The position numbers and the translations under genes were made by a program. Shown here piece by piece: positions 2,088-8,431 of a DNA stretch of 24,339 nucleotides. The notes beneath the pieces were generated by a model, which searched no databases, had not been told where the DNA came from, and saw only the letters and a list, made by a program, of their open reading frames with translations. The DNA lies in NCBI GenBank assembly GCA_900553295.1, contig USCR01000021.1, forward strand, positions 1 to 24,339. Reading direction: 5' to 3'. Origin of the DNA: an uncultured Eubacteriales bacterium. GTDB lineage: Bacteria; Bacillota; Clostridia; Christensenellales; Aristaeellaceae. The stretch's first letter is position 1, and each line of letters begins with the position of its first letter.

Positions 2088-2265
2088 CGTTTCCCTCCCA
2101 TCTTGCGGCGGCAAGCTCAATATGAGCTTCGTTCAGTGCCTTAGTAATTTCGTCTTTCGACGGGGTATGATTAAAAAAGACGAGGCCACTTAACGCAGCT
2201 TCGTCTTCAATCATCGCTATTTTCTTCCCACAACAAGGACAGATGAGATAGTTTTCACTAACCAT
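2080..2265 (-). CDS. Small zinc-ribbon protein of unknown function (61 aa)
   Basis: The product begins MVSENYLICPCCGKK, with a single CPxCG-type knuckle near the N-terminus, and continues as a mainly helical acidic chain. Only one CxxC pair is visible, so metal binding would need dimerisation or a partner. The ATG at 2265 is preferred because GAGGTGA lies 5 bases upstream. An in-frame GTG at 2274 would overlap the portal stop codon and is the alternative. The gene sits between portal and protease/scaffold and is probably translationally coupled to both. I do not recognise a family. Confidence 0.65.
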   Translation of the reverse strand: MVSENYLICPCCGKKIAMIEDEAALSGLVFFNHTPSKDEITKALNEAHIELAAARWEGNDE

Positions 2266-2270
2266 TACTG

Positions 2271-3929
2271 TCACCTCGTCTCGTTGTAAGTCTGGTCATA
2301 CGCACCTTTATCCTCATCCTCAGTAGTTGCCGGACGCCCTACCTCTGTAGGAACAGTAGGATCGGTGAGATAACCCTCTGAGTTGAATGAGGTTGCGTAT
2401 GGGGTAAACACCTCATCGTATCCAGCTTCACTCTCTTTTTGCCGCTTAACATATTCAGATTCCACATCGACGCCAACAAGACCATACGCGGTATCTCTGC
2501 TGCAACCATATGTGGCATACAGCAATTTGGAGAGCTCCATCTTCATATTCATATCCAACAGCTCAGAGTCAATAATCTGGATTGACGGGCGATATGTCCT
2601 ATCAATCCCATTCACATCAAGCAGAGTAGAATAGAAGTGCTCGATCATCCGCTCGACCTGCCTCGAAATACTGTTGATGCATTTGAGAAGCTGGTCAAGG
2701 TTGATGTTCGCAGTGGAAGCGGTCTGAGAGCGGTCTGCGGCCAAGAATGCAACGCCAAGGGAACTAAGAACCTTGTTACGGTAGATATTGATTTTTTCTT
2801 CAGAGATATCCTCCGTCTTCGGTTCAACGTATGAAATCGACTCAATATATGGGCCAGTGGTGGTGACCACGGTGTTATTCTGCCATGCCTGCATCAATTG
2901 CTGATGCGCATACGCCATTTCCTCAAAAGCCTTTCTATCACCGTTGGGTCCAAGGCTTTCCTTCCTCATTTTCTGATGGATGATCTTCTTGCTTTTTGCC
3001 CGAGCCATGCTTGAATCGGCATTCTGATAATCGTCCAATATCAGTGTAGGGGCAAGAGCTCTAAAGATAGGAGTCAAACCATAGCGGCGTCCAAAATTGT
3101 TAATGCGGCAGACGCCGGTGTAGTTTTGGTCAAGGACTGCATAAGTGTCTCGATTCACCAGTGCGTCGTAAACCTCTTTGGGGAAGTTTGCCTCCACCTC
3201 TTCATTGATATTTCCAAAGAATAAGAAGGAACCGTCCCGCTTCTTAACATACGTCTTCGAAAGCGCATTACGCAAATTCTGGATGTTCACAAGCATAACA
3301 GGATTACCATTTTCTTCATATCCGCTATGCTCTATGATCGTGAGAGGAAGCTGTTCAATTTGCCAATTCTCATCTTTGTTCCGAAGCAAACCGCAATAGT
3401 TTCCCTCAAGATAAGTTGTAAGAACGGCATCGTAAATGGTTTGTTTTAGATTTACCTGTTCATTGAAATCTTCCACGAGCTGTTGTACTCTTTCGAGCAT
3501 CCTCGTTTTGTTGCGCTGCCCTTCAAAGCTCTTGTAAGACAGGCGGTATTCTGTGTTGATGTTATTACTGATTGACTGGATAACCATACCAATCAAGTCG
3601 TTTACATTCACATACTGGCGCACAATATCGTTGATCTGAGTGATATTGGATAAGTTGTTCTGCGCATTCTGTCCAAGGGTAGAAATCGTCGACAGTGTAA
3701 GGGTGGACGGCGTTCCAGTATCAGTAAGATAGGCTGAATACTGAATATTTTTTGGATCATACGCCGCAACAGCATTTTTGATGTAGCGATCAATTTGCTC
3801 AGCCGTTGTAAGCACCACAGTATCCTTATCAGGTTTTCCTGCATATACGATATCAATGTTATCTATACCGTTCTGCGAGGCGATACGATTCCCCTGTGAG
3901 GACGACTTGCTTTTTACTTTCTTTGCCAT
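2271..3929 (-). CDS. Phage portal protein (552 aa)
   Basis: The portal forms the dodecameric ring at one capsid vertex through which TerL pumps DNA. Length is typical for the family. The chain starts with a Lys/Ser-rich tail, then an alpha/beta body containing NDLIGMVIQSISNNINTEY and LTTYLEGNYCGLL, a central helical part, and a segment around LSSLGVAFLAADRSQTA where portal proteins often carry conserved small residues. The ATG at 3929 has a strong AAGGGGGTG site 5-6 bases upstream; an upstream in-frame ATG at 3956 would overlap the terL end and lacks such a site. It lies 13 bases after terL and overlaps or abuts the small zinc-ribbon gene, the normal order in tailed phages. No frameshift or intron is seen in it. 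Confidence 0.85.
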   Translation of the reverse strand: MAKKVKSKSSSQGNRIASQNGIDNIDIVYAGKPDKDTVVLTTAEQIDRYIKNAVAAYDPKNIQYSAYLTDTGTPSTLTLSTISTLGQNAQNNLSNITQINDIVRQYVNVNDLIGMVIQSISNNINTEYRLSYKSFEGQRNKTRMLERVQQLVEDFNEQVNLKQTIYDAVLTTYLEGNYCGLLRNKDENWQIEQLPLTIIEHSGYEENGNPVMLVNIQNLRNALSKTYVKKRDGSFLFFGNINEEVEANFPKEVYDALVNRDTYAVLDQNYTGVCRINNFGRRYGLTPIFRALAPTLILDDYQNADSSMARAKSKKIIHQKMRKESLGPNGDRKAFEEMAYAHQQLMQAWQNNTVVTTTGPYIESISYVEPKTEDISEEKINIYRNKVLSSLGVAFLAADRSQTASTANINLDQLLKCINSISRQVERMIEHFYSTLLDVNGIDRTYRPSIQIIDSELLDMNMKMELSKLLYATYGCSRDTAYGLVGVDVESEYVKRQKESEAGYDEVFTPYATSFNSEGYLTDPTVPTEVGRPATTEDEDKGAYDQTYNETR

Positions 3930-3942
3930 GTTCCACCCCCTT

Positions 3943-4479
3943 TTAGAACGAAACAACGCTCACACAATTGGGAGCGAATGCAAAATCGTTATTATTATAT
4001 TTGAGCATATCACGCTCTATCTCTTGTGCTATGTAGTTTCCATATGCAACGCTGGAGTACCTATCCTTCCGTGCGCCGGATGCTTCTTGGACACGGATCT
4101 TACCATTCACAACATCATAGTTCAGGTTGATGGTTTCGTTGCAGAACGCTGTAGTCTGGTAATAAGGAGCTTCAAACAAGAGCTGTTCTTCAGGAGTAAG
4201 TTTGTCGAATCCTTTTAGGCTACTCAAGTATTCGCGTCCTTCCGTTTCGTGTTCAAGGAATTTGATTTTTCCGCGTTTCATGCAATCACGGAGTAACACC
4301 GCCATATCACTGTTCATGCTTTGCGTTGCTTTGATGCTATAGATGACCTTGTTAGCCGACGGGTCTTTGCTTCGCAAAGCCATTCGTTCATCGTTGATGC
4401 ACGACCAGCTTTCGTAAACAGTCCCACGGTCTTCATCGAATAGGTCGATGACTAAACTGTCATATACGGACATTCCAAT
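3943..4479 (-). CDS. terL: terL exon 3: C-terminal half of nuclease domain
   Basis: This exon encodes residues 409-586. It starts IGMSVYDSLV, so the spliced product reads DTNGIGMSVYD, a typical terminase nuclease sequence. A gene caller would start it at the ATG at 4473 and miss the two leading codons. It contains the last predicted metal-binding aspartate in ARKDRYSSVAYGNY. The stop TAA is at 3943-3945, just ahead of the portal ribosome binding site. Confidence 0.85.
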   Translation of the reverse strand: MGMSVYDSLVIDLFDEDRGTVYESWSCINDERMALRSKDPSANKVIYSIKATQSMNSDMAVLLRDCMKRGKIKFLEHETEGREYLSSLKGFDKLTPEEQLLFEAPYYQTTAFCNETINLNYDVVNGKIRVQEASGARKDRYSSVAYGNYIAQEIERDMLKYNNNDFAFAPNCVSVVSF

Positions 4480-7400
4480 CGCCTCAAATGAGGTTTGTTA
4501 CCCTATGGGCTTTTTATCCCATAGTTCTTGCTGTTAATTTCCAGCAAGTCCAGCATATCTTTTTGACTCATAGAGTCAGTGCGGACTCGTGGAAGGATTA
4601 TATTCTGGTCAACCAGTTTCACCTTCTATGCGTTGCCTGTGACTACGATGTTACTCGTAGCCTTCCAGTCGGATTCCCATCTCAGGGTTCCCGATTTCTT
4701 CCGCACTCCAACTTCTGTGTCACCACAGAAGAGGGCATCGCTACCATTTGTGTCCACTACAACAAAATCAGCATCAAAGTCATCATACAATTGTTTCAGG
4801 CGTATGGCTTGGGCTTGACCATGCCCGCCTTCAAGCGTCTCAATATAAGAAACCAGCCTCTGATATTTCCCTCCATATCCAGGAATCATCTGGATAAGGG
4901 CAATCGAAGAGGCATCGTTTTTATTTCCTCCCATTGCAGCTACGTCCATTGCCAGCAGCCGTATCTCGCCGTTCTTCTTTTGCGGCGGCTTAAACTTATT
5001 GTCCGGCAGCAAGGAGTAGTAGTGTTTTGGGTATAAGGGGTAAGTCAGCTTCCGAACGCTGTCCACATTCTGAAAAGTGAAGAAAGCGTTGGCAGATTCG
5101 CCCCAAAAAAAGGAATCCATCTCCATCCGTTACGTTTGGCAAAACCAATCATCATTGCTTCAACGTGTTCCATTTCGTTTCGATGAAACTACTCTGGTTG
5201 GCAACACTCCACAACATTCAAGGGTGTAACGAGTCCCTCTAAGCTGAAGTTCGTTAATGTTGAACTCCATACTTCATCAAATTAAGCGCAGCATTATAAT
5301 CGCGGTCCATTTCAAGTCCGCAGTGTGGGCACCGATATGTGCGCTCACTTAGCTTTAGGTCCGTTTTAATTTCTCCACACGATGAACAAGTCTTGCTACT
5401 CGGGAAATATTTGTCAGCTTCGACTATTGGAATACCATTCCATTCGCATTTGTATTTAATTTGGCGCAAAAACTCACCTATTGCTTGATCTTGTAGATAT
5501 CGATGAAGCAAACGAGTTTCTTTCGATTTGAGCAACTGTGCGCTAGTAAAGTGTTCGATGCAAACTACACTAGGGTGCAAACTCACTAGTGTATGAGTTG
5601 CTTTATGCAGATAGTCGTGACGAATACAATAAATGCGATAAGACAATTTTTTGTAAATACGCATATATTTTTCAATGTTTTTAGTGTTTTCGAAGCTACC
5701 ATTAGTGCGATATTTCCTGGAAATTACTCTCTGAATATACCTTCTCTTTTTCTCTAGGTTCCTCAACCGTGCCGACTTGTTGATGTTTTGAAATACGATT
5801 TTGTCATCCCCAAAAGCAACAGTTGCAAGAGTTTTGATTCCCACATCTATACCCATCGGAATATCAGTTAGAACAGGTGGTTGGTTCTCCCATTCCATTC
5901 CAAAAGATAGTATCCATTTGTTATTGATATGGCTGATTCTTGAATTAACGAATTTGCATCCAGGCCCTTTAGGTATATCATAGTTTGTTTGATATTTTAC
6001 TCTCCCTATTTTTTCAAGTTTTACTGTATCTTCATTGAAATACATTCTGTCCTCACGTGTCGCAAATACCTCTTTTGAGTGCTTTTTGCTTTTATATTTT
6101 GGGAGTCTAGCTCTGCCTTGGAAGAAGTTGTAAAATGCGCGGTCCATATCTCTACAGGAGCGCTCTAGAGTAACCCGCGAAACATTATTCAACCAGACAT
6201 ATTCATCTTCTTTTTTTAACAAGGTGAGCCTTTTCATCAAATCATTGAATGCGAGGTGCTTCCCGGTTTCAATATACTGGTTATTTTGCATTTCAAGCAT
6301 GTAGTTGAAAATGAACCTCGCCGATCCTATATGTTGATACATCTTCATTTCTTGCTCTTTTGTGGGAAGTAATCGTACTTTGAAGGACTTTATCAATCGT
6401 TACACCTCCCCTCTCCTTAGGGGAATTGGAATTCAGGACGCTACTCCTGTACCGTTGGATAAACCAACCTCCATCTTTCGACAGAGCGCAGACTATATCT
6501 TCACCCAGCGGGGGTGCCCTCCACTTCCATCACGCTTGTGATGTACTCCATAATGGATAGTCGTTGAACCTTCCCCTCTTCGGGGCTTGGCTGCTGATTG
6601 CCCATTTCATAGCGTTTAGGATTTAACCATGCGCCATCAAGTCTGTTTTTTTCTACTTTCGTACCCTTCACATATAGGCGTTTCATCCTTGTGTTGTGGG
6701 AAGACTTGCTTTAGGGTGTTCCAGCAATTCAAAGGGATTATTATTCAAACACGTTTCCGTGTAAGCGAGCTATTTGTTTTTCATTAACATGGAAAATAAC
6801 TCCAGGCGATACTATCAAAATCAGCTTCTCGCATTTCGTCCTGCACCTGCTCGATTGGGTAATAGCCTTCGCTAACAGGAAGCTGATACGGAAAACCAAG
6901 AACTGCGTAGTTTTCTCCTGACATCATAGATTTGAAATAAGCCTTAAACTTTGCCCAGGAATAATGCCATTTGTAATGCGCAGAACTGATGTAGGTCTCC
7001 GTGTTCATTTCCTTTGGATAATCCTTATACTCGGGAAGCTGCGTATATCCAGGAGAACGAACACCAGCTTTGAATTTGCGCAAAACCTCATCGATAACGA
7101 TCTTCTTAATGCGCACAAACTCGTCACAAATAACCCAGTTGGCGCGAGCAGAACGAGCGCTATCCCTTGCTGTAACGACCTTCACAGTAGAACCATTCTT
7201 AAATGTGATGTATGCGTTGGCAGGGGAAATAGAATACCCTGCTATCTCGTTGGAAAGGTTAATGGATTTCGAACGAAACTCATTGATGATTTTCTCAAGC
7301 ACGTTGACGGACTGAGTTCTGTTTCCGGCGGCGATAATTATTTCGATGCCTGGATACAAAATTGCCTTTACACAAATAGCCGCAGCCACAATCATGGTTT

Positions 7401-7638
7401 TACCCATGCCTCGGCTTGCGATAATCATTTGGTAAGTGAACTTCATAATGATGTTCAGAAGTATCTTCTGAAAAGGGCGCATCCATGTCATGCCGAGATA
7501 ATCTACAGCAAAACGATGAGGGTTCGCTCTATAGAAAGCCACCCAACGCTCCATACCATCCATGACTCGTTCGTACTTTGACTTGCGGCGCATTCCAGAT
7601 TTGCCATAGGGAGTAGGGGCAATGTATTCGTTATCCAT
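3943..7638 (-). CDS. terL: Terminase large subunit, split by two group I introns (spliced product 586 aa)
   Basis: The coding sequence is best read as the join of 7638-6799, 5126-4743 and 4479-3943, which are 280, 128 and 179 codons, each a whole number. The product is the ATP-driven motor and nuclease that packages phage DNA. Walker A (SRGMGKT, residues 75-81), Walker B (WVICDE, 168-173) and TETYISSAH (from about 213) lie in exon 1. LLAMDVA (D341) and VVVDTNG (D405) lie in exon 2. The third acidic motif (ARKDRYSSVAYG) is in exon 3. The ATG at 7638 has GGAGG 8 bases upstream. Unspliced reading stops four codons into the first insert. It heads the head-gene cassette. The small terminase gene normally upstream is absent because phage DNA ends at about 7650. 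Confidence 0.88.
4480..4742 (-). ncRNA. ORF-less group I intron (263 nt) in the terL nuclease domain
   Basis: The full group I fold can be drawn. P1 is GGUA/UGCC closed by a GCGA tetraloop, with U-G at the splice site. P2 is a perfect 8-bp stem (4712-4719 with 4724-4731, GUGA loop). P3 is a perfect 8-bp pair (4700-4707 with 4578-4585). P4/P5 lie in ATCGGGAACCC...GGGAATCCGA, and P6 is CUACGA/UCGUAG. P7 pairs 4627-4631 with 4553-4557. P7.1 and P7.2 (AAGG/CCUU, CUGG/CCAG) suggest subgroup IA. P8 is GACUC/GAGUC (4565-4577), and P9 is CUUGCUG/CAGCAAG, followed by a further stem at 4503-4524. The last base is G. Excision joins GGT to ATT and restores DTNG-IGM. No homing endonuclease is encoded. Confidence 0.92.
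4743..5126 (-). CDS. terL: terL exon 2: linker and first half of nuclease domain
   Basis: This exon encodes residues 281-408, from MEMDSFFWGESANAFF to VVVDTNG. It has no ribosome binding site, and an in-frame TAA lies two codons before its first ATG, so it is unlikely to be an independent gene. It joins naturally to exon 1 (AWS-MEMD). It carries the first nuclease aspartate (LLAMD) and the second (VVVD). Unspliced reading would add 38 unrelated residues from the second intron and stop at 4626-4628. Confidence 0.85.
5127..5300 (-). ncRNA. Predicted omegaRNA scaffold at the IStron right end
   Basis: IS605-type TnpB guide RNAs overlap the 3' end of tnpB and end at the right end, taking their guide from flanking DNA. 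Here the downstream region contains GGGACTCGTTACACC (5223-5237) and GGAGTGTTGCCAACC, which resemble IS605-group right ends as I remember them. It also holds a GUUUCAU/AUGGAAC stem and a final TTGG/CCAA hairpin. The predicted guide would start at 5126 with ATGGAGATGGATTCC, which is terL exon 2. The 5' limit is approximate. Confidence 0.6.
5254..6396 (-). CDS. tnpB: TnpB RNA-guided nuclease of the IStron (380 aa)
   Basis: TnpB is an omegaRNA-guided DNA nuclease, ancestral to Cas12, that cuts DNA matching the sequence next to the element's right end when a short target motif is present. The N-terminal helical region (about 1-110) carries typical TnpB features (LERSCRDMDRAFYNFF, RLPKYKSKK). RuvC motifs are complete: D184 in GIDVGIKTLA, E281 in VVCIEHF, and D366 in DRDYNAALN. 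A zinc finger is formed by C337, C340, C356 and C359. Length matches active family members and there is no frameshift, so it is probably functional. The start is TTG at 6396, placed 6-7 bases after GGGGAGGTG; no ATG fits better. It has no tnpA partner. Confidence 0.93.
   Translation of the reverse strand: MIKSFKVRLLPTKEQEMKMYQHIGSARFIFNYMLEMQNNQYIETGKHLAFNDLMKRLTLLKKEDEYVWLNNVSRVTLERSCRDMDRAFYNFFQGRARLPKYKSKKHSKEVFATREDRMYFNEDTVKLEKIGRVKYQTNYDIPKGPGCKFVNSRISHINNKWILSFGMEWENQPPVLTDIPMGIDVGIKTLATVAFGDDKIVFQNINKSARLRNLEKKRRYIQRVISRKYRTNGSFENTKNIEKYMRIYKKLSYRIYCIRHDYLHKATHTLVSLHPSVVCIEHFTSAQLLKSKETRLLHRYLQDQAIGEFLRQIKYKCEWNGIPIVEADKYFPSSKTCSSCGEIKTDLKLSERTYRCPHCGLEMDRDYNAALNLMKYGVQH
6434..6798 (-). 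ncRNA. Group I ribozyme core of the IStron (P1 to P9 region)
   Basis: P2 is ACACG/CGUGU with a GAAA loop (6749-6762). P3 can pair CCCUUU with GGAGGG. P4 pairs GCUG of TTGCTGGAA with CAGC of AATCAGCAGCC. P6 has a CCCC/GGGG hairpin. The R element GGTTCAACGACTA (6558-6570) and the S element AAGATATAGTC (6491-6501) form P7 by GACUA/UAGUC, a near-consensus group I core. P8 is CACCC/GGGUG. P9 has a 7-bp stem with a GAAA tetraloop, followed by GUUGG/CCAAC and CAGGA/UCCUG hairpins. The 3' splice site lies far downstream at 5127, beyond tnpB. A 61-codon frame over the core (6501-6686) is judged non-coding. Confidence 0.88.
6799..7638 (-). CDS. terL: terL exon 1: ATPase domain
   Basis: This exon encodes residues 1-280, which cover the whole packaging ATPase. 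It ends ...DSIAWS at the codon AGT. The last T of that codon pairs with G in the predicted P1 helix of the IStron, as expected at a group I 5' splice site. Without splicing, the frame adds only Tyr-Phe-Pro-Cys before TAA at 6784-6786, giving a 284-residue ATPase with no nuclease domain. Confidence 0.88.
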
Positions 7639-7650
7639 CGTCACCGCCTC

Positions 7651-8431
7651 CATGTATGGCGTTTTCTATGCCTTCTCCAAAAACATAATCGAAGACATCT
7701 TCATCAACAACAATACCTTCGGCATGCTGCTGCGCAACACCCTGCTGTACAATCTGGTGTTCATTGTACTGAACATCGTGATCCCTGTGGCCCTGGCCAT
7801 GATGATCAACGAATTGTACTCCAAGCGCAAGAGCAAGGTTTACCAAACCATGATGTTCTTCCCGCACTTTCTGTCCTGGGTGGTGGTCAGCTACTTTGTG
7901 TTCGCTTTCCTCAGCCCGGACAAGGGCCTGATGAACAAAATCGTCATTGCCCTGGGCGGGGAAAAGATCATGTGGTATTCCGAACCTACCTACTGGCCGT
8001 TCATCCTGGTGTTCATGAACCTGTGGAAGGGCGTGGGCTACAACATGGTGGTGTATCTGGCCACCATCACCGGCATTGACCAAAGCTTGTATGAGGCGGC
8101 CATGCTGGACGGCGCCACCAAGTGGCAGCAGGCAAAGTACATCACCTTGCCGCTGATGAAGACCATCCTGATTACCATGTTCATCCTGAACGTGGGCAAG
8201 ATCTTCTACTCCGACTTTGGTCTGTTCTGGCAGGTAACCCAGGGCGTGCCCAACTCCCTGCATAACGTGGCGTCCACCTTCGATACCTTCATTTATTCTG
8301 CGCTGCAAGGTTCCACGCCCATCGGCCGTACCGCTGCGGCGTCCCTGTTCCAGTCCGTGTGCTGCTGCGCTACCATTCTGCTGGCCAACTTCATCGTGTC
8401 CAAGATTGATCCGGACAGCGCCATCATCTGA
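7651..8431 (+). CDS. LplB-type ABC sugar permease, 5' end missing at the phage/host junction
   Basis: This is a membrane subunit of a CUT1-type oligosaccharide importer. The visible part has several membrane segments and the EAA loop that contacts the ATPase (YEAAMLDGATKWQQAKYITLPLM). It ends KIDPDSAII. Family members are about 300-330 residues; here about 260 residues of host coding remain, so the first membrane segment and leader are lost. An ATG at 7622 lies in phage DNA and only opens the frame by chance (its first ten residues read terminase start-region sequence backwards). The exact host boundary, near 7650, cannot be fixed to the base. It is followed 17 bases later by the second permease. 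Confidence 0.82.

Follow-up and report, generated by a model that had tools for sequence, protein, structure and literature searches.

The window analysed here is a stretch of 24,339 nucleotides (nt) from an uncultured Eubacteriales bacterium (contig USCR01000021.1), and it contains the large terminase gene, terL, of an SPbeta/YonF-family phage. We observe that terL lies on the minus strand at 7653-3943 in three pieces separated by two inserts. The larger insert, at 5127-6798 (minus strand, 1,672 nt), is an IStron, a group I intron that carries a tnpB gene; its ends were placed using the group I match, the sequence as read, the alignment to YonF and the uninterrupted genes of relatives. A first-pass annotation had proposed an IStron with these ends in a phage terL, and the match to Rfam family RF00028, the TnpB protein and the YonF alignment confirm it. 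Exon 1 (6799-7653, minus strand), which encodes the ATPase part, has 285 codons from the ATG at 7653, matches Pfam Terminase_6N and phrog_15503, and is 47% identical to SPbeta YonF, being alignable from about residue 28 of the open reading frame (ORF). Exon 2 (4743-5126, minus strand, 128 codons) is 46% identical to YonF 289-413, and exon 3 (3943-4479, minus strand, 179 codons including the stop) is 50% identical to YonF 418-581 and matches phrog_24618 and phrog_26582. Together the three exons cover residues 34-288, 289-413 and 418-581 of YonF (L007), with zero gap across the IStron.

Architecture of the IStron

The catalytic domain of the intron (6469-6796, minus strand) matches the full RF00028 model (Intron_gpI) with 89.2 bits (E 7e-22). 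Its core elements were read on the minus strand as R at 6570-6558, S at 6501-6491 and P7 as GACUA/UAGUC, which bears out the near-consensus core that had been proposed together with an Rfam search. Downstream, tnpB (5254-6396, minus strand) encodes 380 amino acids from a TTG start that lies 8 nt past a GGAGG ribosome-binding site and 72 nt past the end of the Rfam intron match. The protein matches PF07282, PF12323 and PF01385 and has a zinc ribbon (C337/C340/C356/C359). Residues D184, E281 and D366 line up with the RuvC residues of the ISDra2 and ISFba1 TnpBs, so that tnpB is intact with all of its RuvC residues, as had been claimed. Among solved structures, the highest scores go to an AI-designed nuclease (9YYG, 185 bits), ISDra2 TnpB (168 bits) and ISFba1 TnpB (8IAZ, 165 bits).

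Between tnpB and the 3′ splice site we found a RAGATH-18 RNA (5152-5215, minus strand; 48.9 bits with a cut-off of 44.9, E 6.5e-7), which is probably the scaffold of a guide RNA (reRNA), as experiments have shown RAGATH-18 to serve as the guide scaffold in IS607 TnpBs (PMC11061315). The element then ends in ...GTAACGG (5127-5151, minus strand, sequence as read), where the predicted end of the guide scaffold coincides with the predicted 3′ splice site. The group I, TnpB and RAGATH-18 matches all exceed their curated cut-offs, and the ORF listing contains no IS607 serine transposase ORF A within the element. This layout is like that of the ISFba1 IS607 TnpB (8IAZ) in TnpB family, in catalytic residues, in having the RAGATH-18 scaffold downstream of tnpB and in the guide at the 3′ end of the scaffold; PMC11061315 mentions neither group I introns nor IStrons.

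Additionally, a perfect inverted repeat of 10 base pairs (bp), the longest found and half G+C, flanks tnpB on both sides. Its 5′ arm (GGTGTAACGA, 6397-6406, minus strand) overlaps the GGAGG ribosome-binding site, and its 3′ arm (TCGTTACACC) was read at 5223-5232 on the same strand. At least 1 in 40 shuffles of the window equally gave a 10-bp repeat. A repeat of at least 9 bp stands at the same place around tnpB in 13 of 24 intron-bearing loci, the window counted in, and the same perfect-repeat test gave 7 bp for SrISt1, whose 5′ arm may precede tnpA. The first-pass annotation mentioned neither this repeat nor the RAGATH-18 RNA.

Splice junction and reading frame

The predicted P1 helix pairs exon GAGU and intron UAUUU (GAGU^UAUUU) with the internal guide sequence AAAUAGCUC (6767-6775, minus strand) and was the highest-ranking of the U.G-centred helices scanned in the region. 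It has nine pairs, where eight had been claimed, and the U.G pair claimed for the splice site is present (6799/6770). Splicing would join AGU to AUG and yield ...IAWS-MEMD..., an intact TerL. The WS^ME join corresponds to YonF 288/289, exon 1 ending at residue 288 and exon 2 beginning at 289 without a gap, in accord with the earlier prediction that excision restores the frame. We also found that the site is uninterrupted in related phages. All 80 of the IMG/VR TerL relatives (the best 80 of 269, of which 27 are at least 90% identical to YonF and thus not independent) are continuous there, in a single tblastn alignment that is gap-free at residues 285-292, and 47 of the 80 have [WF]SME at the site. 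A first TerL scan, which yielded four distant loci, was left unused.

This junction can be set against group B (IS607-type) IStrons, which include BcISt1, SrISt1, CbISt1-4 and CsISt1 (Tourasse et al. 2014, PMC4227781). Group B elements insert after a GG-ending site, have a 5′ exon that ends in G and terminate in CGG (PMC4227781). A further hallmark of the group is a long AU-rich inverted repeat of 15-34 bp. The window element shares with the group its group I intron, a TnpB downstream of P9, the CGG end and an occurrence in phages (CbISt3 and CbISt4). It also shares RAGATH-18 with the SrISt1 region, where a plasmid locus used as a control (L217) scored 74.7 bits for RAGATH-18 and 49.7 bits for group I, just below the cut-off of 50. 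In contrast to group B, its 5′ exon ends in U (TGGAGT^), a GG-ending target is missing, and the TnpB residue at the position that reads base -1 of the target-adjacent motif (TAM) is Glu where SrISt1 has Lys. A U-ending 5′ exon, a canonical P1, a related ribozyme core and a balanced repeat around the ORF region (published as 6-10 bp, PMC4227781) are instead features of group A, the IS200/IS605-type IStrons such as CdISt1. Unlike the window element, group A has a TTGAT-type target, a TCAG 3′ end and a different TnpB.

The element could nevertheless be an ordinary group B IStron that a serine transposase spreads in trans, that is spliced out so as to spare the gene, and whose TnpB only retains the element after excision. 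The RAGATH-18 RNA, the IS607-type TnpB and the CGG end are as this would have it, and loss of the transposase is already in print for the group, ORF A being truncated in CbISt1 and CbISt4 and missing in CsISt1 (PMC4227781). CsISt1 also inserts after AG and not GG, somewhat like the TGGAG here (PMC4227781). However, we rejected a group B-style 5′ splice site, with G as the last exon base and the U placed in the intron, as it would put terL out of frame. Insertion at an IS607 GG core was likewise rejected as the origin of the window copy, since it predicts an ancestral terL that is one codon short (W-M-E) and the codon is present in 80 of 80 relatives.

Recurrence in phages and related ribozyme cores

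The element is one of a set that occurs mainly on phage contigs. TnpB relatives were collected by alignment at 114 loci (24 genome and 90 viral), of which 42, mostly the closest, were examined in 41 records. At 25 of the 42, tnpB is preceded by a group I match at a distance of 60-380 nt, counting one intron cut by a contig end (L037) and two that look like near-copies (L160 and L161); 7 of these 25 matches are under the Rfam cut-off, one of them (L044) being above it in another run. The mapping took in 39 intron-match rows, the other rows lying on different contigs or far from tnpB, and an extra weak match about 400 nt upstream of tnpB at L020 was left uncounted. RAGATH-18 matches are found in 39 of the 41 records, 35 of them above the cut-off. 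A pattern search that presupposed such an ending found the same kind of 3′ ending as in the window at 19 of the 25 intron-bearing loci, and L159 showed it by eye; it was not found at L047, L048, L049 and L051, and L043 leaves its contig. In a phylogeny of 57 TnpBs, 7 changes of the intron label are needed, compared with 18.9 expected, and none of 500 shuffles was as low, on a tree in which many deep branches are unresolved, the bootstrap is unsettled and one row (L203) is full of stops.

The targets are phage genes of several kinds. The YonF-type TerL is split after residue 288 in the window, at about 230 in L045, at about 391 in L155 (by eye, with a phrog_24618 3′ exon) and at about 552 in L163 (by eye, with a TerL-like 5′ exon and a short stretch only on the 3′ side), and a different TerL is split in L164, with phrog_38 on either side. 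From one flank only, the targets appear to be a DnaB-like helicase (L011, its 3′ side being without a PHROG match), an Erf-like annealing protein (L012), a gene with best PHROG 'exonuclease' (L160) and tape-measure genes on one contig (L038 and L046). That 66-kb contig (IMGVR_UViG_3300037249_000367) carries nine group I matches, three RAGATH-18 RNAs and two TnpB introns near tape-measure sequence. L040 was not counted as a terL insertion. Its 3′ exon belongs to terL, whereas an endolysin-like ORF lies on its 5′ side, which points to a possibly chimeric contig, either by chimeric assembly or by recombination between copies.

An in-frame join after U, written by hand, is allowed in ten members (the window, L011, L012, L038, L045, L155, L159, L160, L163 and L164). 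The U-ending 5′ exon is independent of the P1 search only in the window, L045 and L155, where frame and homology fix it, as that search took U-ending exons only. In nine members P1 fits its own exon with a mean of 5.0 contiguous pairs (range 4-6, U.G counted), compared with 2.33 for foreign exons, and 1 of 20,000 permutations was as good; this comparison is biased, the guide segments having been chosen by own-exon pairing. The site used ranked first in six members and second in three (L012, L038 and L159), and 11 of the 20 scanned loci are omitted, for example L163, where the exon-side run is the U.G pair alone.

These surveys bear on the group B origin as well. Resolvase domains were detected in 7 of 39 records, and one phage record (G018) has a short resolvase near another RAGATH-18, as a transposase acting in trans would allow. 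However, the window element has no tnpA, a search of 35 viral records, some of which break off near tnpB, turned up no resolvase less than 3 kb from that gene, and the U fixed in the window, L045 and L155 is at odds with a G-ending 5′ exon. Taken with the frame and the intact codon, this makes an ordinary group B IStron rather unlikely in our judgement.

The ribozyme core connects the element to other terL introns. Of 22 regions, 18 could be trimmed to the core, and the window core is 65-76% identical to the 17 others. The core of the Enterocloster phage CB457P2 terL intron, annotated with an I-TevI-like nuclease that we take to be of the GIY-YIG type, is 73% identical to that of the window (rank seventh). 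The two are alike in gene, in exact insertion and in core, and differ in that the window nuclease is predicted to be RNA-guided and the other protein-guided. The terL insert of Clostridioides phage ES-S-0173-01 (L071), which has an ISDra2-type TnpB 28.8% identical to that of the window, has a core 69% identical (rank twelfth) and matches over 212 nt at 74% in blastn. By eye the L071 insert has TTGAT in front and TTCAG at its end, and at E 0.01 Rfam gave no match there to a group I intron or to RAGATH-18, the missing RAGATH-18 setting it apart from the window element. Although the tree of cores is poorly supported, the presence of an I-TevI-like nuclease on one related core and an ISDra2-type TnpB on another supports the view of a ribozyme lineage with an exchangeable endonuclease as its homing module, a view that these sequences would fit without proving it. 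As observations in their own right, the L071 insert (about 2167-4060) is an unannotated group A-like IStron, and the CB457P2 terL (L072, 2893-5340) is annotated as separate hypothetical proteins and is apparently split by two introns, one with the I-TevI-like nuclease.

The second insert in the window terL (4480-4742, minus strand, 263 nt, no ORF) is a probable small group I intron, judging by its fold and its DNA likeness to a phage terL insert. The fold has an energy of -93.9 kcal/mol (z -5.54, 0 of 200 shuffles), with P3-P8-like helices by eye, and splicing at GGT^ATTGG would yield DTNG-IGMSVYD. Over 205 nt it shares 75% identity with an insert that lies close to YonF residue 172 in an Enterocloster phage terL. 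Fecal phage L074 carries 1.1 kb of inserted DNA at roughly the position of the window insert (after YonF residue 415), and the beginning of this DNA shows 77% similarity across some 125 nt. Assignment to a known Rfam family was rejected, as the insert gave no group I match and its two other matches are far under the cut-offs.

Much of this setting is already in print. IStrons are known from the C. botulinum phages c-st and D-1873 (CbISt3 and CbISt4, PMC4227781), group I introns split terL of gut phages with splicing seen in metatranscriptomes (PMC12363816), terminases are named as targets (PMC3984707), and group II introns in phages are the subject of PMC12350094. For Silviavirus phages, RAGATH-18 and group I introns are both listed, with no link drawn between them in the available part of the source (PMC13346280). 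The first-pass annotation was thus right to place an IStron in a phage terL, but its emphasis on the phage location as notable is only partly borne out; the RAGATH-18 scaffold, the recurrence in other phages and the second terL insert, all of which it missed, are more unusual. In the open-licence literature we found no report that describes phage RAGATH-18 IStrons under this name or that assigns TnpB the role of homing endonuclease in a phage intron. We also observed RAGATH-18 TnpBs annotated as transposase in Staphylococcus phages Twort and SEP1 (L215 and L216), where the 7 kb covered contain no intron match, and, in a fecal phage contig (L009, 5180-7786), a ROOL RNA just ahead of a TnpB with RAGATH-18, followed by two tRNAs.

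Predicted guide, target motif and mobility

The predicted guide is the first ~20 nt of terL exon 2. Compared with 44 distinct relatives it has 1-4 mismatches in the first 12 nt (mean 2.0) and 2-8 in the first 16 nt, and its 12 nt have the lowest mean mismatch (2.04) of 42 12-nt windows around the site.

The residues that would read the TAM appear to differ between the phage set and other TnpBs. In ISFba1, K83 reads G at TAM position -1, and in ISDra2, Q80 reads T at this position (PMC11061315). At the corresponding position the 25 intron-bearing rows, the window among them, have Gln in 16 and Lys in none, the window itself having Glu, whereas the 33 other rows, among them two whose introns are of a different type (SrISt1, Lys, and L071, Gln), have Lys in 26 and Gln in 3. 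The Lys/Gln contrast, which may stem from just one change on the tree, parallels the last base of the 5′ exon, which is U in the phage set and G in group B (PMC4227781). ISFba1 K80 and K83 align with window V75 and E78 in both pairwise and multiple alignment, and N121 and N122 align with R114 and E115 (pairwise) or with Asp and a gap (multiple), so that AGGAG as the TAM of the window TnpB is unsupported by the reader residues. The ten 5′ flanks (GGAGT, CGGGT, ACTAT, GGAAT, CCTAT, GGGAT, GGAGT, CGGAT, GAACT and GATAT) have in common the last T alone, which the helix search required, and the G-rich tendency of some may reflect P1 pairing.

We favour, at a probability of roughly 60%, the reading that the element is a phage-adapted IStron that moves in the manner of mobile group I introns, its homing endonuclease being RNA-guided and taking the 3′ exon as guide. 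The terL pre-mRNA would splice itself at AGU^AUG to give intact TerL, and an unspliced transcript would supply TnpB and an reRNA with the RAGATH-18 stem as scaffold and the start of terL exon 2 as guide. Because the scaffold end coincides with the 3′ splice site, each transcript would make either TerL mRNA or guide RNA, if function follows that of ISFba1. The TnpB-reRNA complex would cut intron-less terL in co-infecting or resident related phages, and repair would copy the element in, the occupied allele being safe because the exon 1 flank no longer adjoins the target. After a move the guide would automatically be the new 3′ exon, so that no evolution of the endonuclease would be needed. The transposase that presumably first inserted such elements is no longer carried.

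Several observations weigh against this account. Intron-less TnpBs (L009, L039, L157 and L158) are nested among intron-bearing ones on the tree, and the conserved kind of repeat around tnpB is missing in 10 of 24 intron-bearing loci, L036 having just 7 bp. Relatives with at most one mismatch number 8 for the guide window, compared with 9 for a window 30 nt upstream. The AGGAG-reading residues of ISFba1 are not kept, and the Glu of the window departs even from the usual Gln of its set. Finally, the phage part breaks off abruptly at about 7,650 inside the bacterial gene lplB, so that the copy in the window is perhaps a remnant, or its contig is mis-joined.

Homing endonucleases of phages can serve as exclusion weapons. 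The element could accordingly be mainly an antagonistic tool, with TnpB and its guide destroying terL of competing phages and mobility being secondary; the guide seed lies on conserved terminase codons, MEM[DE], and could hit relatives. We find this improbable, given the mismatches of the guide to the 44 distinct relatives and the quite different kinds of genes that other members occupy.

The phage context bears on whether the copy is alive at all. Downstream of terL lie a portal gene (phrog_2739) and an ORF of unknown function (phrog_3313). On the other side, at about 7650-7694, phage DNA of about 45% G+C adjoins a bacterial sugar-transport operon of about 60% G+C inside lplB, the N-terminal part of which is apparently gone, and terL would be the first phage gene. 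This boundary may reflect integration, deletion or a mis-joined contig. The abrupt stop at lplB and the long branch of the window TnpB (0.69, median 0.3) are what one would expect of a dead relic, a defective prophage fragment in which the element neither splices nor moves. However, the reading frames of tnpB, the terL exons and the portal gene are open, and the ribozyme core, P1, the RuvC residues and the zinc ribbon are kept, which makes a relic very improbable.

A mobile intron of this kind also suggests a broader proposal, which we put forward tentatively: a phage IStron lineage lost its transposase and became a mobile group I intron with an RNA-guided nuclease that respecifies itself at each site, and jointly its TAM reader changed from Lys to mostly Gln in step with the change from a G-ending to a U-ending 5′ exon, so that a single base would be TAM -1 and at the same time supply the U for the U.G pair. 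IStrons as a class are known; what appears to be new within the class is the phage lineage with its U-ending 5′ exon, RAGATH-18 guide and altered TAM reader.

Classical homing endonucleases need a new specificity for each new site. A nuclease guided by the exon would be free of this need, and this could account for the spread of one element type to several phage genes. A 2024 Science study reportedly dealt with the conflict between transposon-encoded introns and guide RNAs in a C. botulinum IStron. If our reading is true, the element would offer a phage setting in which to measure the conflict of splicing, which supplies TerL for packaging, with guide production. Additionally, the phage set would supply compact TnpBs with probably new target motifs.
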